DNA from: Marivita sp.
GTDB lineage: Bacteria; Pseudomonadota; Alphaproteobacteria; Rhodobacterales; Rhodobacteraceae
Assembly: GCF_020055675.1 (NCBI RefSeq)
Contig: NZ_JAIPUS010000001.1
Location: forward strand, 248,001 to 312,000
Direction: 5' to 3'
DNA length: 64,000 nucleotides
Part shown: one piece after another, positions 38,961 through 61,653 of the stretch
Numbering within the stretch: position 1 is the first letter of the stretch
Layout of the letters: every line of letters starts with the position of its first letter
Notes under the pieces: generated by a model
Told to the model about the DNA's origin: nothing
What the model saw: the letters and a program-made list of their open reading frames with translations, nothing else
The model's database searches: none
Translations under genes and position numbers: made by a program

Positions 38961-39155
38961 TCAGACGCTGGCTTTGGTAGAGCGCGGGCCGGCAAGTAGC
39001 CAGATAATGAACCCGAGCAACGGCAAAAGCAGGACCAGCAGACACCAGATCACCTTGGATCCGGTTGAATTGGTCGATCCGATGATCGAAACGAGGGCCC
39101 AGACATTCAGAACGAGGAGGATCAGCCCTCCGAGTCCGGTGATTTCAATATTCAT
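38961..39155 (-). CDS. PLDc_N-domain small membrane protein
   Basis: A 64-residue protein with two membrane helices. It matches the phospholipase-D N-terminal (PLDc_N) module: about residues 8-28, then STNSTGSKVIWCLLVLLLPLLGFIIWLLAGP. Such stand-alone modules are of unknown, probably membrane-stress, function. Preceded on the reverse strand by a perfect AAGGAGGT. The 280-nt region beyond (39156-39435) contains no gene I can support. Confidence 0.8.
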   Translation of the reverse strand: MNIEITGLGGLILLVLNVWALVSIIGSTNSTGSKVIWCLLVLLLPLLGFIIWLLAGPRSTKASV

Positions 39156-39435: not shown

Positions 39436-39624
39436 TCACTCATCCACCACTGTGCTGGCTGCGCCGTCCTCTTCGGCCGTGCCGGGTTCGTTCCCTTGCA
39501 CGGCAAGGTTGGCGAGGTAGGCAAAGTACAGCACCGCCACGAAGACGGCGGCGATGGCAAAACCGAGCAGAACCGGACGATGGCGTTTCTTCTGTTTTTC
39601 AACATTCGTTTCGGGAGCGGACAT
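39436..39624 (-). CDS. Small single-helix membrane protein, EcfG-controlled
   Basis: A 62-residue protein: a basic cytoplasmic N-terminus (KQKKRHRP), one membrane helix (about residues 17-38) and an acidic C-terminal tail. No recognised family. Start 39624 has AAGGA upstream; the longer frame to 39858 overlaps the divergent promoters. A GGAAC-N16-CGTT promoter (39683-39659, reverse) places the start 35 nt downstream of its -10, making it a likely general-stress gene. Confidence 0.7.
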   Translation of the reverse strand: MSAPETNVEKQKKRHRPVLLGFAIAAVFVAVLYFAYLANLAVQGNEPGTAEEDGAASTVVDE

Positions 39625-39658: not shown

Positions 39659-39683
39659 AACGCGGCTCTGGTCCGAAAGTTCC
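39659..39683 (-). promoter_or_regulatory. EcfG-type promoter, small membrane protein gene
   Basis: Reverse-strand GGAAC (39683-39679), 16-nt spacer, CGTT (39662-39659), 35 nt upstream of the ATG at 39624. This is the alphaproteobacterial general-stress sigma consensus. Its -35 lies back to back with that of the promoter at 39692. Confidence 0.7.
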
Positions 39684-39691
39684 AGTCGTCT

Positions 39692-39716
39692 GGAACCGGG
39701 CCACCGGTTGCGCGTT
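39692..39716 (+). promoter_or_regulatory. EcfG-type promoter, MATE transporter gene
   Basis: Forward-strand GGAAC (39692-39696), 16-nt spacer, CGTT (39713-39716), 65 nt upstream of the MATE ATG at 39782. The two divergent -35 elements form the inverted repeat GTTCCAG-N4-CTGGAAC (39679-39696). Confidence 0.7.
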
Positions 39717-39781
39717 GCGCCTCACAAGGTGACGCCATGTCGCCGCTGCCCCCAAAGAGATTGATGCGACAAGGAGCCCAC

Positions 39782-41164
39782 ATGGCGCAAGCCGACCTGA
39801 CCCGGGGACCTGTCTGGAAAGCCCTCGCCTGGGTGTCCGCGCCGATGACACTCGGCATCGTTGCGGTGCTGAGCGTCGGTTTGGCGGATGCCTATTTCCT
39901 TGGACAATTGGGACAGGCCCCGTTGGCGGCGGTGGGCTTCATCTATCCCGTGACAACGGCGCTGACCTCGATGTCGATTGGCCTTTCGGCCGGCGCGAAT
40001 GCAGTGGTGTCGCAGGCCATTGGACGTCATCGCGCTGACGCGGATGCGCCGATCCGGCTGGCGCTGCATTCACTTGCGATGGGCCTGGCGATGGCCTTTG
40101 TCGTCGCGGCCGCGTTTTTCATCTGCGCACCGACCCTTTTCCGCTGGATGGGCGCGCAGGACGCGGCTCTGGCGGAAACGCGGCTCTACGTCCCGTGGTG
40201 GTCGGTGTCCTTTATCTTCCTGGTGGTGATGATGGTCACCAATTCGGTATTCCGGGCGCATGGCGACGGCTTGACCTCGGCGGCATTCATGGTGCTGGCG
40301 GCCGCGGTCAATATCGCGATCAATCCGGTGTTGATCTTTGGCTGGGGGCCGATCCCGCAGCTGGGCACCGAGGGCGCTGCACTGGCCACGGCGATTGGAC
40401 GGGCCGTCGGCGCGGTTGCGGCCGCATGCTACGCGTGGCGCCGCGGTTTCCTGACGGTTTGCGGCAAGCCTTTCAAGAATTTCTGGTCATCGGCCCGGCA
40501 AATTGTTGCAGTTGGCGTGCCGGCTGCGGGATCGAATGCGATCAACCCGGCGGGCATGGCGCTTGTCACGGCGGCGGTGGCGACATTGGGCGAGGCGGCG
40601 GTGGCCGGATTCGGAGCCGCGACGCGCGTTCAATCCGTGGCATTGGTGGCCCTGTTCGCGCTGTCCGCGGGGATCGGGCCGGTGGTCGGGCAGAATTTCG
40701 GCGCCGAGCGCCGCGACCGCGCCGGCCTCGCGCTCAAACAGGCGTGGATGTTCAGCGTGTTCTATGGGCTGCTGCTTGCGGCAGGTGTGACGCTGTTCGC
40801 CGACCAGATCGCGGGGCTTTTTTCCGAAGGGTCTGGAGCGCGGGCTTATACCGCGCAATATCTGCGGGTCGTGAGCTGGAGCATCATGGGCTACGGCATT
40901 CTTGTTATCACCAATGCGGCCATGAACGCCCGGTCAAAGGCGGCCTATTCCCTGGGGCTGAGCCTTGCGCGCATCTTTGCCGTTTACGTGCCGCTGGCCT
41001 GGGTCGGAATGTGGCTCTTCGAATATTGGGGGATCCTGTTCGCCGCCGTCGCGGCAAATGTCTTTGCCATCGCGGGTGGGCTGTTCTGCGCGCGCGCCAC
41101 CGGCTTGATGGATGATCTGAACGGGCATCCGGTTCCCAGAGTCCTGCCCCAGGCGAACGGGTAG
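39782..41164 (+). CDS. MATE-family multidrug/metabolite efflux protein
   Basis: A 460-residue, 12-helix inner-membrane antiporter of the NorM/DinF-like MATE family: two six-helix halves with LADAYFLGQLGQAPLAAVGF in the first and GIGPVVGQNFGAERRDRA in the second. It exports cationic or other organic compounds with Na or H antiport. AAGGAG precedes ATG 39782; upstream in-frame codons are unsupported. A forward EcfG promoter lies 65 nt upstream. It converges on the amidotransferase/amidoligase operon, with 5 nt between stops. Confidence 0.92.
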   Translation: MAQADLTRGPVWKALAWVSAPMTLGIVAVLSVGLADAYFLGQLGQAPLAAVGFIYPVTTALTSMSIGLSAGANAVVSQAIGRHRADADAPIRLALHSLAMGLAMAFVVAAAFFICAPTLFRWMGAQDAALAETRLYVPWWSVSFIFLVVMMVTNSVFRAHGDGLTSAAFMVLAAAVNIAINPVLIFGWGPIPQLGTEGAALATAIGRAVGAVAAACYAWRRGFLTVCGKPFKNFWSSARQIVAVGVPAAGSNAINPAGMALVTAAVATLGEAAVAGFGAATRVQSVALVALFALSAGIGPVVGQNFGAERRDRAGLALKQAWMFSVFYGLLLAAGVTLFADQIAGLFSEGSGARAYTAQYLRVVSWSIMGYGILVITNAAMNARSKAAYSLGLSLARIFAVYVPLAWVGMWLFEYWGILFAAVAANVFAIAGGLFCARATGLMDDLNGHPVPRVLPQANG

Positions 41165-41169
41165 CCCCG

Positions 41170-41883
41170 TCAGGCCGAGCTTTCGTGCATCGCGTCTGTC
41201 TGAACCCGATCCTGGCGATAGGCGTCGGCGGCGCGAACAAGCGCCCGAAAGAGCGCACGCTGGCGGTGGGCGTAAAACAGATGTTCCGGGTGCCATTGGA
41301 CGCCAAGCGCAAACGGATCTTTTACCCGTTCGATCGCTTGGACCATGCCATGCGTGTCATCCGCACAGATGCGCAGACCACGGCCCAGTCGGTCCACCGC
41401 TTGCGTGTGCAGGGCATTGACCTTCATCGGTTGCGGACCGCTGACCAGCGACAGGTGCGTGTCCGGTCGGATCCGCACGTCGCGTTTGGGCAGGATGGTC
41501 TTGATCATGCGCTCGCGCCCATAGGTTCCCCAGGCGTCCTGATCCAGTGTGCCACCAAGCGCGACGTTGAGCATCTGCGAGCCGCGACAGATACCAAGCA
41601 CGGGGATGTTCTGGTCCAGCGCTGCTTCGGCCAGCGATCGCTCGAGCTGATCTCGTTCGGGGTCGATCCGGGCGGAAATGCCCAGCTTGCCACCGTAGAG
41701 ATCCGGACCGATATCGTCGCCCCCGCCGATGATCAGCCCGTCCACATCGGCCAGATCTGCGATGCGTCCGACACCCCAACGAACCCCACGGCCGCCGGTG
41801 ATCCAGAGGTTGAGATTGACCAGCGGAAATACCCGCCAGCCCGACCGCGATGACGTGGTCACGGCGATCAGCGGCCGGCTCAT
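41170..41883 (-). CDS. Class I glutamine amidotransferase-like gamma-glutamyl hydrolase (PuuD/peptidase C26 type)
   Basis: A 237-residue enzyme with nucleophile C99 in VLGICRGSQMLN, and catalytic His198/Glu200 in QWHPEHLF: a complete triad. The fold matches gamma-glutamyl-GABA hydrolase PuuD, which releases glutamate from gamma-glutamyl amides. The ATG at 41883 overlaps the amidoligase stop (ATGA), so the two act together: one is expected to form an amide bond and the other to cleave or transfer at gamma-glutamyl groups. No putrescine-utilisation genes are present. Confidence 0.88.
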   Translation of the reverse strand: MSRPLIAVTTSSRSGWRVFPLVNLNLWITGGRGVRWGVGRIADLADVDGLIIGGGDDIGPDLYGGKLGISARIDPERDQLERSLAEAALDQNIPVLGICRGSQMLNVALGGTLDQDAWGTYGRERMIKTILPKRDVRIRPDTHLSLVSGPQPMKVNALHTQAVDRLGRGLRICADDTHGMVQAIERVKDPFALGVQWHPEHLFYAHRQRALFRALVRAADAYRQDRVQTDAMHESSA

Positions 41884-42851
41884 GTGTCAACCTTCGCGGC
41901 GTGCTCGTCGAGCAATCGGTCAACGGTGTCGATCCATTCGGATCCGCGCGAAAACCACGCCGCATCATGTGTCGCCCATGCGGCGCGCAGCGCATCGAGA
42001 AGGTCCGCGTTGGCCGCGACACATTCGACCTGACGCCACAATTGCCAGGCTTGAAGCAGCGACCAACCCGCCTCGTCGATACGGCTGTCGGGCAGGCGGA
42101 AGTGAAAGGTGGGCCGGGGCGATGTCTTGTCTTCGATGTCAAATATCTCGTCGAACAGATCGGGTTCGGCGTGTTTGAACAGCGGCAGCAGATCAAGGCT
42201 CTGACTGCGGCTGGCAACATGCTGTGCCGCGACATGCATCACGTCCGCCAAGCTGTCGAAACTGCCTCCGGCGAGGGCAGAGACGAACCCTTTGGGCCAT
42301 GTTTCGACAAAGGGCATTACGCGTCGGGTTGCGTCGATTTCTTCTTTCATACGCAGCCATGGTTCGAGCATCGCATACGCGATGATCGTGTCGAGCGTGA
42401 AACGGTCGTCGGGAGCGACAACCTCGGGGTTCAGATGGACGCCGAAGCCAAGCAACACGCCACTGCGCGATCCCATCGCGCCGGCCCCGGACAGGGCAGG
42501 GCACAACGTGTCGAACTGCTCGATCTGCGCGCGGGACAATGGCGGGGTGACGATCTCCACCGGGATCACGCCGCGAAAGGCATCAAGTCCCTCTTTCACG
42601 AAAGGCAGATCATTACGTTTGCGCAGCGTGATATCGAGCTCCACATGAATGTCGCCGAAGGCAGTGTCGCTGATTGTCACGCAATGCTGACCATCGTCCG
42701 TGGCGGTGCCGCCGAACAACTGCGCGATCAGCTCACCGGTTTGGGCTTCGGTTGCACCGGCGAATTCGACCTCGACCCCTGTCAGGCGTTCTTTTCCCTC
42801 AGCTGTTTTCTCGCGTGGCAGTGGCGGAAAAGAATTTGGTGTGTCTGTCAT
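41880..42851 (-). CDS. GS-fold amidoligase (Amidoligase_2 family)
   Basis: A 323-residue protein matching the glutamine-synthetase-fold COOH-NH2 ligase family. Acidic metal-site strands are GVEVEF (E27, E29) and DIHVELD (E71, D73), followed by EIVTPPL, the GVHLNPEV loop and a C-terminal RLPDSRIDEAGW with candidate ATP/substrate arginines. Such enzymes join carboxylates to amines using ATP, making peptide-like metabolites or modifying proteins. First gene of a two-gene operon with the amidotransferase. Start 42851 (MTDTPNSF); 70 upstream codons are rejected. Confidence 0.85.
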   Translation of the reverse strand: MTDTPNSFPPLPREKTAEGKERLTGVEVEFAGATEAQTGELIAQLFGGTATDDGQHCVTISDTAFGDIHVELDITLRKRNDLPFVKEGLDAFRGVIPVEIVTPPLSRAQIEQFDTLCPALSGAGAMGSRSGVLLGFGVHLNPEVVAPDDRFTLDTIIAYAMLEPWLRMKEEIDATRRVMPFVETWPKGFVSALAGGSFDSLADVMHVAAQHVASRSQSLDLLPLFKHAEPDLFDEIFDIEDKTSPRPTFHFRLPDSRIDEAGWSLLQAWQLWRQVECVAANADLLDALRAAWATHDAAWFSRGSEWIDTVDRLLDEHAAKVDT

Positions 42852-43093
42852 GTTATCCCTATGCGCGGCCCCCCCGTCGCCTGAAAGACTTTGTTGAAAT
42901 CCGCAGGATGTGCAAGAGCGGCGACGCCGCAACGTTGCGATTGGAAATCGCTTGTTCCGCATACGCGCGCGTCGGGGAACCCGGGTCGGGGCAGCCGACA
43001 TGGGCATGACGCCACTGCACCAAGTGAGGCCATAGAGCCATCCGCGAAAGGCCCACGGCACAGGTGTGACGCTCGGTCCGTGACAATTTGGCT

Positions 43094-43861
43094 TTAGCGA
43101 ACGGTGTTCTTGCCGTCCGTGAATTCGGACCGCGCCGCTTCGATGCCGCTATCGACGGCGGCCTTGCCCTGATCCTCGAGCTTGGACAATTCGGCCTGTA
43201 GCGCGGCTTCGGCATCGCGCATCAGCTGGTCCCGCGTCGCACCCATCATGTCGTCCTCTGTCCGGGTTGTCGGCAGAAGCGCGCCCACCAAAGCACCGAC
43301 GCCCGCGACCATCGCACCAGTCAGCAACGGCTGGCTGTAATGCGTCTTGCGCGCCTTTTCGGAGGCGCGGCGGGCGCGGCGTTCGATATCTTCTTGGGCA
43401 TCGATAACCTTGAGCCGGGCCTCGGTCACTCGGGCCCGCGCTTCGGGTGACAGCTTGTCCAACCCCTTGTCCAGCGATTTGCGCAGGGTAGACGCAGACG
43501 CCGGCCCGGCGAACCGACCGGTCATGACCTGGTCGCGGGCCTTGTTCCTGGCATCGGCGCTGGCGATCCTGTCGTCCTGGCCCCGTGTCTCATTGGAGGG
43601 CAGCGACGGTTGAGTGCTCTGTCTTTGCGAGCTGAGCGCGATCATGGCAGCCCCCACGCCCAGTATTGCAAGCCCTGAGGGATTTTGTTTCGCGCCCTTC
43701 ATGAGCGTGTGGATCAAGGTCTGACCCAAATCGGCGGATTTGCCAACGGCGCGCTGTGCGCTGGCCTCGGGCTGGGCATTGGACGCAAGCCTGTTCAACC
43801 GCTTGGTCAACTGGGCGCGATGGGTTTCCGCGGTCTGTTCGAGTTCTTGCGTGCTAGGCAC
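43094..43861 (-). CDS. DUF3618-domain membrane-associated protein
   Basis: A 255-residue protein. The first 60 residues fit DUF3618 (ELEQTAETHRAQLTKRLNRL), with a hydrophobic stretch at about 62-78; the middle is disordered and charged, and a glycine-rich membrane helix follows (LLTGAMVAGVGALVGALLP, about 177-195) with a helical tail. Starts with GTG at 43861 behind a perfect AAGGAGGT; overlaps the preceding gene by 8 nt. Third gene of a stress-type operon with a holin-like and a DUF883-like protein. Confidence 0.82.
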   Translation of the reverse strand: MPSTQELEQTAETHRAQLTKRLNRLASNAQPEASAQRAVGKSADLGQTLIHTLMKGAKQNPSGLAILGVGAAMIALSSQRQSTQPSLPSNETRGQDDRIASADARNKARDQVMTGRFAGPASASTLRKSLDKGLDKLSPEARARVTEARLKVIDAQEDIERRARRASEKARKTHYSQPLLTGAMVAGVGALVGALLPTTRTEDDMMGATRDQLMRDAEAALQAELSKLEDQGKAAVDSGIEAARSEFTDGKNTVR

Positions 43862-44255
43862 GGGTCACCTCCTTCACGGCGTGAATATCGGATTTGAACT
43901 GGTGCAGCGTTCTTTTCGGTGCCAGCGACGCTGCAGACAGGCGGGATTTCCCGATGAGCGCAAAGATCAGCGCCACGGCCAGAAACCCGATCGCCACGAC
44001 TAGCGCGGCCCATGGCAAGGCCAGGCCCAGTGCCGCGACCCCTAACACGGCCGCAACGGCCAAGGCGCCAAGTCCGACAAAGGCAATGAGTGCCGCCAGA
44101 CCGAACAGGACAAGACCACCGCCGGCCCGTGAGGCGTTGTCCGATATCTCCTGCCTGGCAAGCTGCAATTCGGTGCGGAACAGAGCGCGTGCTTCGTCGA
44201 GGACGGCGCCGATCAAGGTGCGCCAGCCGGACGGGTCTTCGGTTTCGTGTTTCAC
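43854..44255 (-). CDS. Phage-holin-family (DUF1469/Holin-X) membrane protein
   Basis: A 133-residue protein with two long membrane helices (about residues 45-72 and 78-103) and amphipathic ends, matching the chromosomal holin-superfamily III proteins often found with DUF883 and DUF3618 genes. There is no lysis module, so a phage role is unlikely. The start is GTG at 44255 with GGGAGG upstream, overlapping the previous stop as GTGA. Confidence 0.82.
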   Translation of the reverse strand: MKHETEDPSGWRTLIGAVLDEARALFRTELQLARQEISDNASRAGGGLVLFGLAALIAFVGLGALAVAAVLGVAALGLALPWAALVVAIGFLAVALIFALIGKSRLSAASLAPKRTLHQFKSDIHAVKEVTRA

Positions 44256-44704
44256 TGGCGGCCTCCCCTGTCTTGTGCGGAACCGGTCCAAGGATCGTAA
44301 TCAGGCGCGTGATGCTCCTCGGGATCGGCGTCATCGGATTTCAGAAAGCGCATCGTCGCGAACCCGGCCAAGGCCGCGCCCCCCAGAAACAGAAGCGGAT
44401 TGCGGCGCGCGAAGGCGCCAACATCGTCAAGCATTTCATCTACCGGCTTTTCCCGGAGACGGTTCGTGACGTTGCTGATCTGCGTTTCGATCTGCCTCAG
44501 TGCTTTTGCCTCGAAGGAACCGGGCTCGAATTCACCGCGCGCCGCCCGGGTCGCATTGACAACGTCATCCGCGCTATCGACAGCGTCGTCACGCGCGGCC
44601 TCCGCCGTTTCCTCGGCACTGGCCGCAGCATAATCCTTGGCGGTCCCGGCCATCTCGGATGCGCGTTTCCTGGCGGTGTCGATTGTGCTGTCCGCGTTGG
44701 TCAT
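44252..44704 (-). CDS. DUF883-like ribosome/membrane stress protein
   Basis: A 150-residue helical protein: an Ala/Asp/Glu-rich coiled region, then PVDEMLDDVGAFARRNPLLFLGGAALAGFATMRFLKS. This is the C-terminal single helix and RxNP..FLGGA signature shared with YqjD/DUF883 proteins that bind stalled ribosomes at the membrane. First gene of a three-gene overlapping operon. Start 44704 chosen; METTM at 44716 is an alternative. An EcfG promoter lies at 44889-44865 with a 160-nt leader. Confidence 0.8.
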   Translation of the reverse strand: MTNADSTIDTARKRASEMAGTAKDYAAASAEETAEAARDDAVDSADDVVNATRAARGEFEPGSFEAKALRQIETQISNVTNRLREKPVDEMLDDVGAFARRNPLLFLGGAALAGFATMRFLKSDDADPEEHHAPDYDPWTGSAQDRGGRQ

Positions 44705-44864
44705 TGTGGTCTCCATCTGTAACGACGCTGCCATCGACGGTTTCGCCCGGCCCCGGTCCAGTCCGGTCCAGGCCTGTCGCCGACAGCCCCTTCGGCCTTG
44801 CCGATCGCTGTGGCCGACATTCTTTTGTGCGCAATATTCTTGGCACGGTGTCTGTTGCGGTTCG

Positions 44865-44889
44865 AACGCGCCAAAAGAGCAGAAGTTCC
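44865..44889 (-). promoter_or_regulatory. EcfG-type promoter, DUF883/holin/DUF3618 operon
   Basis: Reverse-strand GGAAC (44889-44885), 16-nt spacer, CGTT (44868-44865), 160 nt upstream of the operon start. It is the only feature I can support in the 358-nt stretch 44705-45062; the rest shows no convincing reading frame or hairpin. Confidence 0.65.
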
Positions 44890-45062
44890 TTTTCAAAGCC
44901 GGGGTGAGCCACCGATTGTCTGGCGCGGGGCCGAAGTGGCCTCTGACGTGTCGGACAGGGCGCCGTCGCGCGCCTGTTTTCCGGAAGGTTAGTCGTGGCC
45001 CGGCAGGTTCCCTCCCCGCGTCACCGGTCAATTCCGATTCCCGGCCAGCAAAGTCTACGCTC

Positions 45063-45791
45063 CTATATCAATGGCCGTTTCAACAGCCGCTCGCCGACCG
45101 AATGTGCCCGCTGGGCAAGCTGATCCGGATTGTGCACATCCAGAACGCCATCGGCCCAAGACGCGATGCTGTCTTGACGCAGCTTCGCCAGCGTCTTGTT
45201 GGTGTGAACCAGCGACAGTCCCATGGCATCAGCAAGGTCTTGCTGGCGGTACGGCAGGGTGACGCGGTCATTGTGGTTCAAATCCAGAGCGGTGAGCCGT
45301 TTGTAAAAACGGTTCAGCACCCAGGATACCTTGGCCATGCCGTCCAATTGCCCGACAGCAGAGAGCATTTCACCCAAAAGGCTTTCTTCGATGGCGGATG
45401 CATGGGTCAAATCGAAAGCGCGTCTTGGCTGGGTCTTGAACAGGTCCCACAGCGAAGAGCGGTTGAACACGCATAGTGTCATGTAGGTCGAGGCTTCAAC
45501 GGAATGCTGCATCTCCTCCATGACGCCACTTTGCAGGCCTATGAAATCGCCGGGAAGAATGAAACCGACGACCTGGCGTCGTCCATCCTCCAGGGTCTTG
45601 TAGCGAAGGCCCATGCCCTTGAGCGCGGTGTAGAGGTGCGCGGACGCGCGTCCCTCTGTCAAAATCTGGGTTCCGGGCTGCGCGTTCAATTCGCCCGTCT
45701 TGAAGCGCAACATGAATTGTTCTTCCTCTTTCGAGATGTCATCGAACAATTCAAGCGGTCTGAGCGGGCAGTTTTCACAGTTGATCGTCAT
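45063..45791 (-). CDS. Crp/Fnr-family transcriptional regulator
   Basis: A 242-residue regulator: cyclic-nucleotide-binding-like beta roll (about 30-140, FILPGDFIGLQSG) and a C-terminal winged HTH (about 165-235, TLPYRQQDLADAMGLSLVHTNKTLAKL). The N-terminus has C5 and C8 (NCENCPL), reminiscent of FNR-type cluster or thiol sensing, but there are not four aligned cysteines, so oxygen sensing is unproven. Start 45791 chosen over GTG 45809. Divergent from the receiver-like gene and inside the stress block. Confidence 0.88.
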   Translation of the reverse strand: MTINCENCPLRPLELFDDISKEEEQFMLRFKTGELNAQPGTQILTEGRASAHLYTALKGMGLRYKTLEDGRRQVVGFILPGDFIGLQSGVMEEMQHSVEASTYMTLCVFNRSSLWDLFKTQPRRAFDLTHASAIEESLLGEMLSAVGQLDGMAKVSWVLNRFYKRLTALDLNHNDRVTLPYRQQDLADAMGLSLVHTNKTLAKLRQDSIASWADGVLDVHNPDQLAQRAHSVGERLLKRPLI

Positions 45792-45871
45792 AAGGCTCCA
45801 CGTTGTCACAGTTTAATGCGGAGGGAGAATCGCGGTGTCATACGAGGGGGGATCGAGAGAGGTTGAAGCAC

Positions 45872-46240
45872 ATGTCCAGTTGCACCCGATTGGCGCCCAG
45901 AACGTTGCTTGTAACGGAAAACATGGTCGAGGCGGAGGACCTGATTGAGACCTTGACCCTTCAGGGGATGGGTCCGGTTCTGCATGTCAGGCATCTGGAC
46001 GAGGCCAAACACGCCTTGGACGAGGACAACCGCCATCTCGAGATGATTATCTTTGGCTTGTCCCAGCAGGTTCCGGGGACAGAGGCATTCATTCAAGCCA
46101 TAGACACGCTGTCAGTGCCGCTTCTTTGGATCGACGGAAGCGCGGACGTCGCTGCCAGGCACCGGTCGGCAGCCGTGTTGCGCCCGTTTTCGACAAAAGA
46201 GATTTCCAACGCTCTGACCCAGTTGGGTGTGACACGTTAA
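45872..46240 (+). CDS. Receiver-like protein lacking the phospho-acceptor Asp
   Basis: A 122-residue stand-alone domain with CheY-like periodicity (TLLVTENMVEAEDLIETLTLQG ... VPLLWIDGS ... AVLRPFSTKEI). At the usual acidic pair it has E16-N17, at the phospho-acceptor site F61 (EMIIFGLS) and at the Lys site R104 (RPF), so it cannot be a conventional phosphorylated receiver. It may be a decoy or adaptor in the stress signalling block. ATG 45872 has AGAGAGG upstream. Its stop overlaps the convergent DUF883-like gene. Confidence 0.72.
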   Translation: MSSCTRLAPRTLLVTENMVEAEDLIETLTLQGMGPVLHVRHLDEAKHALDEDNRHLEMIIFGLSQQVPGTEAFIQAIDTLSVPLLWIDGSADVAARHRSAAVLRPFSTKEISNALTQLGVTR

Positions 46241-46527
46241 TTCCGTTTCTGCATCACCACTCCGATCGCGACACCGACACCCAAGGCCCCGAGAACAGCG
46301 AGCGTCGGATTGCGACGGACTGCGCTGTCAAACTCGCCTTGAAAGGTCTGCACTTGCTCGCTGCTCCGCTCGATGGCGTCTTCGGCCTTTGTCTGAGCGG
46401 TGTTGGCGACGTCGCGCAATTCGTGTTTGGCGGACGAGATGGAGTCGCGCACCTTGTCCGTGTGTGACGTCTCGTTGGTGTCATGCTGGATGTGTTCAGC
46501 TTCGGTATTGCCGGTTGAATGCGCCAT
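46237..46527 (-). CDS. DUF883/YqjD-like tail-anchored stress protein
   Basis: A 96-residue helical protein with a polar N-terminus, a coiled region (DVANTAQTKAEDAIERSSEQ) and a C-terminal membrane helix preceded by RRNPTLAVLGALGVGVAIGVV, the YqjD/ElaB-like anchor. Such proteins tether ribosomes or stabilise membranes in stationary phase. AAAGGAG precedes the ATG; a reverse EcfG promoter begins 50 nt upstream, so it is probably a direct stress-regulon member. Confidence 0.82.
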   Translation of the reverse strand: MAHSTGNTEAEHIQHDTNETSHTDKVRDSISSAKHELRDVANTAQTKAEDAIERSSEQVQTFQGEFDSAVRRNPTLAVLGALGVGVAIGVVMQKRN

Positions 46528-46552
46528 GATGTGTCTCCTTTGTTACGAGGAA

Positions 46553-46577
46553 AACGCCGCGAGGGCGGCAAAGTTCC
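46553..46577 (-). promoter_or_regulatory. EcfG-type promoter, DUF883-like gene
   Basis: Reverse-strand GGAAC (46577-46573), 16-nt spacer, CGTT (46556-46553), 26 nt upstream of the ATG at 46527. Confidence 0.72.
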
Positions 46578-46660
46578 CGGACCTTACCCGAAGGTGCGTC
46601 GGCAAAAGGTTGGGCGGGGTCATGTGAAGGCAGATGACCGTGACATGTGCGCGTGCAAGC

Positions 46661-46684
46661 AACCGGAGCCTGTCGGCTCCGGTT
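46661..46684 (-). terminator. Hairpin terminator after phyR
   Basis: AACCGGAGCC (46661-46670) and GGCTCCGGTT (46675-46684) form a perfect 10-bp stem with a 4-nt TGTC loop, 26 nt beyond the phyR stop. T-tract is short, but position and stability fit a terminator that isolates phyR from the downstream DUF883 promoter. Confidence 0.6.
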
Positions 46685-46710
46685 TCCTGTGTCTGGACCC
46701 CGATGGGGTT

Positions 46711-47520
46711 TTACGCCTTGAGCGTTTCCGTGGAAGAAAAGAACATGGCTTGGCTGACGGCAGATCTGACCTGGTCTTCTGTATAAGGCTTGGCGATCAG
46801 GAAGGCCGGCTCCGGCCCCTCGCCGGTCAGAAGGCGTTCGGGGAAGGCGGTGATGAAAATCACGGGCACCTCGGGGTTGTCGGCAACGATACTGTTGACC
46901 GCGTCGATGCCGCTGGACCCATCGGCCAGTTGAATGTCCGACATGATCAGATGCGGCTTTTCCTGCGCGAAAAGATGCCGCGCCGCGTAGGCCGTTCTGG
47001 CAATGCCTGTCACCTTGTGACCCATATCGGCGACAATCGCTTCGAGATCCATCGCGATGATCGCCTCATCCTCGATGATCATGATCCGCCCGGCAAGAGA
47101 CTTTGCCATCTCGCCATAAGCGATATCGACAAGTTTGGCGGCTTCTTCCGGGCTGATGTCGAGGGTGGTCGCGATATCGTCGAAAGACAATTCTTCAATC
47201 GTGTGAAGCAAAAGCGCCTCGCGCGTGCTCGATGTCAGCATCGCGAGATGTTCCTGAGCCTTGGCCACCGGGCCGGTTTCCTCGGTGTTGAATGTCGCAC
47301 CTGACGACGACCAGATAGAATGGAACACCTTGAAAAGCGCCACCTTGTCCGACGCGTCATGATCAAACAGCGAAGAATCGCTCAAAATGGCTTCAAGCGT
47401 GGCTGCGGCGTATTTGTCCCCCTCGCTCTGCGATCCGGTCAGCGCCCTTGCATAGCGGCGCAAATAGGGCAGCTCCTCGCCGATTTTCGAGGTAAGACCC
47501 TTGGGCTGTTCGGTTGACAT
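46711..47520 (-). CDS. phyR: General stress response regulator PhyR
   Basis: A 269-residue protein with the diagnostic PhyR layout: N-terminal sigma-factor-like domain (about 1-140, ELPYLRRYARALTGSQ ... LSFDDIATTLDIS) fused to a C-terminal receiver (about 145-265). D195 in LIMSDIQLADG is the phospho-acceptor and K244 lies in IAKPY; FITAF marks the FAT-type receiver. When phosphorylated it sequesters NepR and releases EcfG. Divergent from nepR-ecfG with overlapping EcfG promoters between. No cognate HWE/HisKA2 kinase is encoded in this window. Confidence 0.96.
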   Translation of the reverse strand: MSTEQPKGLTSKIGEELPYLRRYARALTGSQSEGDKYAAATLEAILSDSSLFDHDASDKVALFKVFHSIWSSSGATFNTEETGPVAKAQEHLAMLTSSTREALLLHTIEELSFDDIATTLDISPEEAAKLVDIAYGEMAKSLAGRIMIIEDEAIIAMDLEAIVADMGHKVTGIARTAYAARHLFAQEKPHLIMSDIQLADGSSGIDAVNSIVADNPEVPVIFITAFPERLLTGEGPEPAFLIAKPYTEDQVRSAVSQAMFFSSTETLKA

Positions 47521-47550
47521 GGAGAAACGCTCCCACTTTTTTCAATTATG

Positions 47551-47575
47551 GGAACAAAACGCATAAAATCACGTT
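47551..47575 (+). promoter_or_regulatory. EcfG-type promoter, nepR-ecfG
   Basis: Forward-strand GGAAC (47551-47555), 16-nt spacer, CGTT (47572-47575), 47 nt upstream of the nepR ATG. Implies positive autoregulation of the sigma factor. Confidence 0.8.
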
Positions 47576-47582
47576 AGGTTCC
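47558..47582 (-). promoter_or_regulatory. EcfG-type promoter, phyR
   Basis: Reverse-strand GGAAC (47582-47578), 16-nt spacer, CGTT (47561-47558), 37 nt upstream of the phyR ATG. It overlaps the nepR promoter almost completely on the opposite strand. Confidence 0.8.
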
Positions 47583-47622
47583 AGATCAGCCGCATGAAAC
47601 GGTGAATTGTTTGAAGGGCTAC

Positions 47623-47796
47623 ATGACACAGGATCGAAGAAATTCAAACCTCGAGGAGGCAATCGAGGCAAACCTGAAGCGGGTCTACGAGGACGTCGCC
47701 AATCAGGATGTGCCGGATCGGTTCAAGGACCTGCTCAACAAGTTGCGCGAATCCGAACAGACCGAAAAAACGGAACCGGAAAACAACGATGGCTGA
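47623..47796 (+). CDS. nepR: Anti-sigma factor NepR
   Basis: A 57-residue NepR-family protein with the conserved helix alpha1 (LEEAIEANLKRVYEDVANQDVPDRF) and alpha2 (DLLNKLRESE). It holds EcfG inactive until phospho-PhyR binds it. ATG 47623 follows GAAGGGC; a GTG at 47602 would add seven residues. Overlaps the ecfG start by 8 nt, the standard arrangement. Confidence 0.9.
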   Translation: MTQDRRNSNLEEAIEANLKRVYEDVANQDVPDRFKDLLNKLRESEQTEKTEPENNDG

Positions 47797-48346
47797 ACAT
47801 AGTGATCCAAGAGACGAGGTTGTCGAGCATCTGAGCGCAATGCGCGCCTTTGCCATGAGCTTGACGCGCAATTCCGCTCTTGCGGACGACATGGTTCAGG
47901 ATGCGCTTGTCAAGGCGTGGTCCAAGATCGATTCCTACCAGCCCGGCACCAACATGCGGGCCTGGTTGTTCACGATCCTGCGCAATACCTATTATTCCCA
48001 CCACCGGAAGGCCCGGCGCGAAGTGGCCGATGTGGATGGTGAAATGGCGGCAGCCCTGTCGCAAAAGCCAGATCATGACGGGCGTTTGCAGATGCGCGAC
48101 TTCAATCACGCGTTCGAACAGCTCAAGGACGAGCAGCGTGAAGCGCTGATCCTGGTCGGGGCTGGTGGGTTCTCTTACGAAGAGGCGGCGCAAACCTGCG
48201 GCGTGGCCATCGGGACAATCAAAAGCCGGGTGAACCGCGCGCGCAAGCAACTGGTCGAGTTGTTGCAGATGAGTGATGACGAAGTGCTGGAAGCCACCGA
48301 TGTCGTCACGACCACCATCGTTTCCGACAACAAGAACGTCGCCTGA
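47789..48346 (+). CDS. ecfG: General stress ECF sigma factor EcfG
   Basis: A 185-residue group-EcfG sigma factor. Region 2 (about 15-80) shows NSALADDMVQDALVKAWSKIDSY and NMRAWLFTILRNTYYS; region 4 (about 110-165) has LKDEQREALILVGAGGFSYEEAAQTCGVAIGTIKSRVNRAR. It directs RNA polymerase to GGAAC-N16/17-CGTT promoters, several of which are in this window. Start ATG 47789 lies inside the end of nepR. Confidence 0.95.
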   Translation: MAEHSDPRDEVVEHLSAMRAFAMSLTRNSALADDMVQDALVKAWSKIDSYQPGTNMRAWLFTILRNTYYSHHRKARREVADVDGEMAAALSQKPDHDGRLQMRDFNHAFEQLKDEQREALILVGAGGFSYEEAAQTCGVAIGTIKSRVNRARKQLVELLQMSDDEVLEATDVVTTTIVSDNKNVA

Positions 48347-48569
48347 CCCTTCGCTCTTGACCGGAAACGCCGTCTTGCGCGGGTGACAGTCGGGTTGGGT
48401 CCGAAAATTACGGGCATGGGGGAACCTGATGTTCGATCCATGGCTCCACGATCCTGGCACCAGGCTCGACATCGAACAGGATTTGCCGGGCGTCACTGAA
48501 AATATTGTCTAACCGACGGGTCTCGCGCAGTATGCGGTCGCCCGGCCGGTCCGGACACAGGAGATTTCT

Positions 48570-49538
48570 ATGAGTCGTGGACGCTTAGCCGACAGACCGA
48601 TGCAGATCCCGCTGAAAGGCGGTTTCGATGTCGCGATGCGGATGTGGAACCAGCAATCCTCCAAGAACCTCGGCCTGATCGCTGCGGGGATTGCCTTTTA
48701 CGGCCTGCTTTCCCTGTTTCCGGGCATCACGGCCGCCATGGCTTTTGCCGGCACGTTCCTGCAACCCGAAATGCTGGTGGAGAACAGCCCCAAGATTACC
48801 GCGATGCTGCCGGAAGCGGCGGAAAAAATCGTCATGGGGCAGTTGCGCGATGTTGCAGAGGCCGATTCCTCGCGCCTGAGCTTTGCCGCGCTGCTGGGTG
48901 TCGGCATCGCGCTTTACTCTGCGTCAAAGGCGGTGGCCAACTTCATCGCGGGGTTGAACATGATCTACGACGAAGAGGAAACGCGCAATTTCTTCAAGGT
49001 CAAAGCGCTGACCATCTTCCTGACCTTTGTATTGATCACCGGCCTGATCGTCGCGATCGTGATCGTGGCCGCGATTCCGGTCGTTGCGTCCCTCTTTGCC
49101 AGTGCCGGCTATCTGGACGACATTGTCATGTTCCTGCGTTGGCCGGTGCTTTTCCTCATGGGGGTGTTGGGCATTTCCATTCTGTACCGGCTCGGCCCGT
49201 GCCGCCGCTCTGCCAAGTGGCGCTGGCTTACGCCGGGCGCTGCAACCGCCTGCGTCCTTTGGGTCGCGGGCAGCTATGGCTTCAGCCTGTATGTCCAATC
49301 GTTCGGGTCCTACAATGAAACCTTCGGCGCGCTGGGCGGGGTGATCATCTTGCTGACATGGCTTTGGCTGTCGACCTTCATCGTGCTTCTGGGTGCGCTG
49401 CTGGACGCCGAGCTCGAGGCGCAGACGCGCATCGACAGCACGGTCGGACAGGACCGGCCGATGGGCGAGCGGGGGGCGGTCAAGGCCGACAATATCGGCG
49501 CGGCCCGCGGAGAAGAATTGACGGAACCCACAAGCTGA
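48570..49538 (+). CDS. YihY/BrkB-family inner-membrane protein
   Basis: A 322-residue polytopic protein with six membrane helices and the family motifs IAFYGLLSLFPGITA, LYSASKAVANFIAGLNMIYDEEE and a C-terminal TWLWLSTFIVLLGALLDAELE. The annotation ribonuclease BN seen for homologues is historical and unsupported. CAGGAG precedes the ATG. It lies 223 nt after ecfG; no EcfG box is visible directly upstream, so it may be read from the ecfG promoter. The next EcfG promoter overlaps its 3' end. Confidence 0.88.
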   Translation: MSRGRLADRPMQIPLKGGFDVAMRMWNQQSSKNLGLIAAGIAFYGLLSLFPGITAAMAFAGTFLQPEMLVENSPKITAMLPEAAEKIVMGQLRDVAEADSSRLSFAALLGVGIALYSASKAVANFIAGLNMIYDEEETRNFFKVKALTIFLTFVLITGLIVAIVIVAAIPVVASLFASAGYLDDIVMFLRWPVLFLMGVLGISILYRLGPCRRSAKWRWLTPGAATACVLWVAGSYGFSLYVQSFGSYNETFGALGGVIILLTWLWLSTFIVLLGALLDAELEAQTRIDSTVGQDRPMGERGAVKADNIGAARGEELTEPTS

Positions 49539-49548
49539 CCGCAACGTT
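49523..49548 (+). promoter_or_regulatory. EcfG-type promoter with 17-nt spacer
   Basis: GGAAC (49523-49527), 17-nt spacer, CGTT (49545-49548), embedded in the last codons of the YihY gene and just upstream of the Pmp3 remnant, DUF4112, small-protein and host-attachment genes, which overlap each other. Confidence 0.65.
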
Positions 49549-49585: not shown

Positions 49586-49738
49586 ATGGAGATTGTCCGC
49601 ATCACCATCGCCGTCCTGGTGCCCCCTGCGGGAGTGATCCCGGAGGTTGGAAACAGGAAACATGTCTGGGTCAACATTCCGCTTGCGGTGTTGGGGTATC
49701 GTCCGGGGATCGTCCATGCGCTCTACACCATTGCCCGC
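49586..49738 (+). pseudogene. Pmp3/YqaE-like membrane peptide without its own stop
   Basis: A 51-codon stretch reading MEIVRITIAVLVPPAGV, then INIP-like NIPLAVLGYRPGIVHALY, is a clear Pmp3/YqaE stress-peptide pattern (family consensus PPLGV ... LLGYIPGxIHA). At the place where the family normally ends there is no stop: the frame runs on to 50005 through the DUF4112 gene in another frame. Two membrane-helix positions carry Pro and Arg instead of hydrophobic residues. Either it has been eroded and overprinted, or it is made as a 140-residue extended protein. No strong ribosome site. Confidence 0.5.
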
Positions 49739-50132
49739 TGCCGATGTTGCGCAAAGGCTGGCGCGTATCGAACGGGTCGCCGGGCTGCTCGATACGCGGT
49801 TCCGCATCCCGCTTTTGGGCATCCCCATTGGCTGGGATTCGCTCTTGGGGCTTGTGCCGGGTCTCGGGGACGCGGTGACAACTGTGCCCGCCGGCTGGAT
49901 GATATGGCATGGCCACCAGATGGGTGCACGCAAACGCACACTCGCGCGAATGGGTGTGAACGCGGGGATCGACCTCGTGATCGGGGCAATCCCGCTTGTC
50001 GGTGATCTCTTCGACATCGCCTTCAAGTCCCACATCAAGAACCTCGCGCTGCTGCAATCCGAAATGCGGCGCGACCTGTCCCACGCTGAACTCGAGGAGG
50101 TACAGAATGCCGAAACGTCACAGATCAAATGA
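49716..50132 (+). CDS. DUF4112-domain membrane protein
   Basis: A 138-residue protein matching DUF4112. The core runs from RLARIERVAGLLDTRFRIP through GWDSLLGLVPGLGDAVTTVPAGWMIW (membrane-embedded) to the second GIDLVIGAIPLVGDLFDIAFKSH hairpin. Function unknown. Start ATG 49716 lies inside the Pmp3-like frame; a longer start at 49647 is possible. It overlaps the next small gene by 26 nt. Confidence 0.78.
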   Translation: MRSTPLPAADVAQRLARIERVAGLLDTRFRIPLLGIPIGWDSLLGLVPGLGDAVTTVPAGWMIWHGHQMGARKRTLARMGVNAGIDLVIGAIPLVGDLFDIAFKSHIKNLALLQSEMRRDLSHAELEEVQNAETSQIK

Positions 50133-61594: not shown

Positions 61595-61653
61595 GGATGC
61601 GCCCCTGAGTTGCCTGGGGTCCCAACGACCGCGTCGCAGGCGTTGTTCCGGAG

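Follow-up and report, generated by a model that had tools for sequence, protein, structure and literature searches.

Interleaved EcfG-type promoter sequences between phyR and nepR-ecfG in a general stress response island of Marivita sp. and its relatives in Rhodobacteraceae

General stress response loci and the locus of Marivita sp.

In the general stress response (GSR) of alphaproteobacteria, the phosphorylated response regulator PhyR takes the anti-sigma factor NepR away from the sigma factor EcfG by partner switching. The present analysis concerns such a locus in a 64,000-nucleotide stretch (hereafter the window) of Marivita sp. (contig NZ_JAIPUS010000001.1, positions 248,001 to 312,000; family Rhodobacteraceae) and, in particular, a 32-bp palindrome between the divergent phyR and nepR-ecfG genes, in which two putative EcfG-type promoters are interleaved. 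The core proteins, the promoter consensus before both core units, kinases of the HisKA_2/HWE type and typical targets are held in common with the alphaproteobacterial PhyR-NepR-EcfG systems; unlike in the usual GSR, however, the predicted promoters of phyR and nepR-ecfG are interleaved in a palindrome and the kinase gene lies away from the locus.

The gene phyR (46711-47520, minus strand), predicted to encode the anti-anti-sigma response regulator, was recognized from matches to PF22029 (1e-26), PF00072 (1.5e-12) and NF006623 (347.8 bits, cut-off 240), and over nearly its whole length the product can also be aligned with solved chains of response regulators, including one named PhyR. On the plus strand, nepR (47623-47796; PF18557, 3e-15), coding for the presumed anti-sigma factor, overlaps with ecfG (47789-48346), the product of which, a sigma factor of the extracytoplasmic function (ECF) type, matches Sigma70_r2, Sigma70_r4_2 and, over the cut-off, NF009198. 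The name EcfG was taken from the context and the ECF family match, not from the ECF15 model. With a PhyR combining sigma-like and receiver domains, a NepR, an ECF sigma factor gene beside nepR and the motif GGAAC-N16/17-CGTT before the core genes and targets, the locus is, as judged from its sequence, a PhyR-NepR-EcfG GSR island of Rhodobacteraceae. A preliminary description of this DNA had already called it a general-stress island, and that name is upheld by the genome-wide motif density, by the Pfam and NCBIfam assignments of the three core proteins (PhyR, NepR and the ECF sigma factor) and by conservation among relatives.

The locus RSP_1274-1271 of Rhodobacter sphaeroides is organized alike, in that phyR diverges from the nepR-like and ecfG genes and has a Crp-Fnr gene on its downstream side, but there the kinase gene is positioned beside that of the sigma factor (PMC5830050). 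Compared by description, no interleaved promoter is mentioned in the available part of that report. According to the same 2018 source, no earlier analysis of PhyR existed for the order Rhodobacterales, and in R. sphaeroides it serves survival of membrane stress and of ultraviolet light in the dark, not of oxidative, heat or salt stress; the sites presented below supply a predicted regulon for the family. For Rubellimicrobium thermophilum, GSR promoters were predicted from a nearly identical consensus, GGAAC-N16-17-C/GGTT, but that species has two GSR loci and a LOV kinase, and promoter overlap is not remarked upon in the accessible text (PMC12148442). Sphingomonad regulons, as far as the excerpts of two further papers go, exhibit the same motif family (PMC7083833, PMC6599016). 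No report of an interleaved EcfG promoter was found in the open-licence literature. The island is real and, by its gene content, ordinary in kind for a GSR, with one feature for which no report was found, a putatively bidirectional ECF promoter conserved in the family.

The palindrome and its conservation

Two exact matches to the motif, starting at 47551 and 47558, form one 32-bp palindrome (47551-47582) of the type GGAAC-N2-AACG-N10-CGTT-N2-GTTCC, which in the window reads GGAAC-AA-AACG-CATAAAATCA-CGTT-AG-GTTCC. The preliminary description had listed both sites and missed that they are one palindrome. This single symmetrical stretch holds two opposed promoter sequences, the plus-strand half facing nepR-ecfG and the minus-strand half facing phyR, and the -10 element of each sits two bases inside the -35 element of the opposite one. 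There is no single symmetrical -10 element shared by both directions; the two CGTT elements are separate, being 10 bp apart in the window.

The arrangement was compared among PhyR loci with fetched sequence. The family set comprised 80 Rhodobacteraceae loci, namely 77 named loci, two genome loci and the window; the Erythrobacter locus L161 was removed from it, and L166 and L167 were excluded as not PhyR. Interleaving, defined as opposed sites at an offset of 6-8 bp with at most one mismatch per half, was seen in 75 of the 80, the central bases being divergent, and in none of 8,000 dinucleotide shuffles of those upstream regions. A second set of family loci gave 27 of 29, or 22 of 23 after removal of six repeats. 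For the class outside the family, 60 loci were taken and 44 passed the PhyR length filter, two of which (L208 and L223, Rhodobacteraceae) were moved to the family set. Half of the remaining 42 carry back-to-back promoters (offset -33 in 8 of these 21), and the others show a one-sided promoter (11), none (5), an offset-2 pair (3), a distant pair (1) or an interleaved pair (1, L220). The offset-2 overlap of opposed sites, each with one mismatch, is the best pair in L188, L231 and L233 (three genomes of a single genus outside the family) and occurs as a second pair in L170, L178 and L209; it was counted as not interleaved.

A scan for the exact palindrome in 385 genomes of the class, covering offsets 6 and 7, returned two matches at offset 7, one in the Marivita genome itself and one in a genome of another alphaproteobacterial family (G323; L198, 1501-1532), and none at offset 6. 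The second match has the same geometry and lies, as judged by eye, between gluconolactonase-like and receiver-domain genes, not between phyR and nepR. Five Rhodobacteraceae were among the 385, i.e. the genome studied here, G141, G055, G370 and G075. One-mismatch pairs are found in G075 and G370, a PhyR match in G055, and no PhyR domain was detected in G141. Since family genomes were so few among the 385, the mismatch-tolerant comparison at phyR loci was used.

The remote kinase and the possible role of the overlap

A kinase homologue adjoins ecfG in 60 of the 77 named family loci and lies elsewhere in the fetched stretch in seven more. None was found in the ten Marivita-like loci or in any part of the 64-kb window, although the stretches of L090 and L162 are short, so that a more distant kinase may have escaped notice in these two. 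The genome encodes two HWE/HisKA_2 kinases, and an exact EcfG-type site is located 147 bp before the open reading frame (ORF) of a 586-aa kinase on contig C22. An exact site occupies the same place in 12 of 14 kinases of the genus (60-100% identity, this one included); the other two are L244, where the site has one mismatch, and L250, which a contig end truncates. Three more distant kinases (31-34% identity) have no site within 450 bp. The site conserved before the remote kinase indicates that the kinase gene, though placed away from the locus, keeps its link to EcfG, and the genus would thus offer a case of regulatory wiring that accompanies a gene at a distance. From its family and its EcfG-type wiring, we infer that the remote kinase is the PhyR kinase.

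In the mechanism proposed here, stress would cause the HisKA_2/HWE kinase encoded elsewhere to phosphorylate PhyR, which would take NepR away from EcfG, and the freed EcfG would start transcription at GGAAC-N16/17-CGTT promoters, including those of its own operon, of phyR, of the kinase and of five nearby target units. The 32-bp palindrome would be read both ways, a polymerase engaged for phyR covering the whole nepR-ecfG promoter and vice versa; the cell probably cannot start phyR and nepR-ecfG at the same instant. With one shared, exclusive start site the ratio of PhyR to NepR-EcfG should be tied, and each initiation would be a choice between the anti-anti-sigma factor and the anti-sigma/sigma pair. 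A GSR island in which the palindrome acts as such a start site, tying the ratio of both arms, is considered the best explanation and a likely one. The stronger proposition, a single mutually exclusive bidirectional ECF promoter across Rhodobacteraceae that hard-wires this ratio and damps noise, is put forward tentatively and given slightly less than an even chance. It would represent a conserved and testable case in which the proportions of the components of a stress system based on partner switching could be set by the symmetry of DNA.

A related principle has been described for σ70 bidirectional promoters of Escherichia coli, where, according to the available text, RNA polymerase can engage pseudo-symmetrical DNA facing either way (PMC12825309). 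These share a symmetrical σ70 -10 element, whereas the Marivita palindrome has two separate, interleaved -35/-10 sets for an ECF sigma factor and, again unlike the σ70 case, is placed at the sigma factor's own control genes. Because it lacks a shared symmetrical -10, the palindrome may be considered to work like a σ70 bidirectional promoter without being a member of that group. By analogy, competition would appear when EcfG is fully active, coupling both arms.

The same geometry could, however, consist of two ordinary autoregulated EcfG promoters that share space, a compact arrangement inherited without regulatory effect. Autoregulation of the core genes is usual in GSR loci, the family shares ancestry, and interleaving saves about 26 bp, as calculated from the observed geometries. 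This main rival is a realistic account, if a somewhat improbable one: the centres of the palindromes have diverged while the offsets hold at 6-8 bp, and the family islands have 43 further exact divergent pairs (within 150 bp), every one of which is back-to-back and none interleaved.

Several points weigh against the best explanation. Both halves are exact in only 48 of the 77 named family loci; no pair at one mismatch or less is present in five of the 80 (L122, L129, L136, L140 and L152) or in two of the 29 of the second set (L061 and L074, the latter repeating L136), and the exact scan matched only the Marivita genome among the five family genomes sampled. The Fisher value of 1e-25 for 75/80 family loci against 1/42 outside it is uncorrected for relatedness and overstates the contrast, since the loci are related and cannot be counted as independent events. 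Steric exclusion may likewise operate between back-to-back promoters elsewhere. It may be only when EcfG activity is high that exclusion becomes important, by analogy with E. coli, where the part of the report available gives basal transcription at bidirectional promoters as too low for competition (PMC12825309). Finally, it is by family only that the remote kinase would be the one phosphorylating PhyR.

A further possibility is that the palindrome binds, solely or in addition, a dimeric regulator such as the Crp/Fnr-type protein encoded at 45063-45791, its likeness to promoters being secondary. In some loci (e.g. L128) the inverted repeat formed by the arms does reach 11 bp, and a Crp/Fnr homologue is present in nine of the ten Marivita-like loci. 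The motif of each arm, however, occurs singly before unrelated genes throughout the genome, no more than 32 of the 77 named family loci yielded a Crp homologue as against a palindrome in nearly all, and the palindrome does not match Fnr/Crp sites of the type TTGAT-N4-ATCAA, all of which makes this explanation very improbable.

Distribution of EcfG-type sites, predicted regulon and island targets

The genome (3,604,362 bases in 82 contigs) contains 57 GGAAC-N16/17-CGTT sites and 130 matches to the reversed control pattern. The motif is therefore under-represented overall, which suggests either that stray EcfG sites are selected against or that composition plays a part. Seven of the sites lie within 9,890 bases around phyR-nepR-ecfG, where 0.16 would be expected, a density about 45 times the genome mean, and the window as a whole holds eight exact matches against 1.15 expected from shuffles. 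The seven had been reported in the preliminary description, and all are present at the coordinates and on the strands given there; its view that chance is improbable agrees with the genome-wide scan it had called for, and an equal motif density across the genome, which it had named as speaking against an island, was not seen, 7 of the 57 sites falling within 9.9 kb. Seven sites in 9.9 kb were reached in 0 of 200,000 scan simulations. Two of the sites overlap and two form a close pair, and with each close pair counted once (5 of 55 sites) the cluster was reached in 152 of 200,000. Clustering by chance or composition was rejected on the genome-wide counts and the scan simulation, and with the scarce genome background, the promoter-like positioning and the tenfold excess over the control in relatives also standing against it, it is scarcely credible.

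That excess comes from 78 loci with PhyR (L088-L165, one of them from Erythrobacter), in which 402 motif sites and 40 control matches were counted over 1.54 Mb. In a count of 406 sites from 76 loci and part of the window (L161 and L163 excluded), 342 are intergenic, and 323 of those are at most 300 bp from the downstream gene. The PhyR proteins most similar to this one (80-84% identity) belong to ten records, of which seven bear the label Marivita and three are unclassified metagenome-assembled genomes. The targets recurring in relatives are DUF1328 (32 loci), the cluster of a 96-aa protein (26), CsbD (23), PLDc_N-like proteins (11), a 62-aa protein (10) and a ferritin-like protein (10), along with a group (14 loci) presumably AI-2E-like from the appearance of its sequences. 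A PhyR match below 1e-50 was obtained in 54 of 120 family genomes, three of the matches being fragmentary or partial, and the system is thus patchy in the family. The record L164 bears an actinobacterial name, Nocardioides marinus strain DP1N28-1, in its title and contains a phyR locus 68% identical to the one studied here, as does the Leisingera record L114 (strain DP2N28-1); L164 is probably mislabelled or mixed.

All distances between sites and genes rest on gene calls by codon scores from the window, and start codons may be off. Five of the seven island sites are 25-65 bp from the predicted start, and the site at 44865 is 160 bp away. The claim that all seven lie upstream of genes stands in so far as each has a start downstream, but only six are intergenic, the one at 49523 sharing 16 bp with the end of the BrkB gene. 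Tolerating one mismatch added no site 10-250 bp upstream of the 22 listed genes between 38 and 53 kb, so that the island sites stand cleanly apart from the background.

Apart from the regulatory genes, five target units follow the island sites. The site at 39659-39683 (minus) precedes the gene of a 62-aa membrane protein with one transmembrane segment and no Pfam family (39436-39624, minus), which follows an EcfG-type site in 10 loci including the window; it stands back-to-back with the site at 39692-39716 (plus) before a MATE transporter gene (39782-41164, plus; PF01554). The site at 44865-44889 (minus) precedes a run of genes for a 150-aa protein (44252-44704, minus), a Holin-X-like membrane protein (43854-44255, minus; PF07332) and a 255-aa protein (43094-43861, minus). 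The site at 46553-46577 (minus) precedes that of a 96-aa protein with one transmembrane segment (46237-46527, minus), the cluster of which follows such a site in 26 loci including the window. The site at 49523-49548 (plus, N17) is located 38 bp before a Pmp3-like ORF (49586-50005, plus) and 167 bp before the predicted start of a DUF4112 gene (49662-50132, plus; PF13430). Thus the holin-like and DUF4112 targets named in the preliminary description were confirmed; a Pmp3-like target exists at 49586, but the gene at 38961 proved to be PLDc_N. The label DUF883 for 46237-46527 was not confirmed by Pfam, which gave only sub-threshold DUF4168 and ApoO, and neither the 255-aa nor the 150-aa protein has a Pfam match that would bear out the label DUF3618.

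The island had also been read as a membrane-protection programme, which is borne out only in part. A membrane protein does occur in each of the five non-regulatory units. In R. sphaeroides, PhyR mutants are reported, in the text available, to be sensitive to SDS/EDTA and ethanol (PMC5830050). The wider set of predicted targets is that of an ordinary GSR. Of the sites beyond the island, 50 in number, 26 fall between genes; 18 of the 50 are followed at 15-100 bp by a predicted start, where random positions in the window would give 1.45; the eighth site of the window (61624-61649, minus), 29 bp before an MgtC-family gene, lies outside the island. The first genes after intergenic sites include those for SodC, DJ-1/PfpI, pyridoxamine-oxidase-like, glucose/sorbosone dehydrogenase, PRC-barrel, HlyD-type, cupin, acyltransferase, PLDc_N and MgtC proteins and a formate/nitrite transporter. 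Gene-call settings varied, and the site L022 has a gene 52 bp downstream in one list and is absent from the first-gene list. Some of the listed sites are surely false, e.g. L020 with a transposase-like gene (by eye). A hydrophobic segment is found in 15 of 29 first genes. For those beyond the island the figure is 11 of 22, only slightly enriched over the 81 of 218 in a background drawn from partly overlapping loci, some genes of which are counted twice. The predicted regulon is, by these gene families, of a mixed general stress type and gives no support to a purely membrane programme, though such a programme remains a fair description of the island, and a programme dedicated to membrane protection in place of a general stress regulon appears unlikely.

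The place next to ecfG that is taken by the kinase in 60 of the 77 named relatives' loci is occupied in the window by a gene for a BrkB/YihY membrane protein (48570-49538, plus). The Pmp3-like ORF is 61% identical to the 52-aa Pmp3 of L088 but, in the alignment to relatives, lacks the stop codon and runs into the DUF4112 gene; it is possibly decaying or fused. An Amidoligase_2 and Peptidase_C26 pair is encoded at 41170-42851 (minus), the homologues of which occur close to phyR in 21 and 22 of the 77 relatives, respectively, and an amidoligase-like gene, identified by eye, follows an EcfG-type site in eight loci. At 45872-46240 (plus) a receiver-like protein of 122 aa with no Pfam or NCBIfam match is encoded, which looks like a pseudo-receiver, as a residue other than aspartate stands at the usual phosphate-accepting position in the window and in 11 of 12 matches (aspartate in L097; by eye). 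Its gene is found in nine of the ten Marivita-like loci, adjoining the Crp/Fnr gene.

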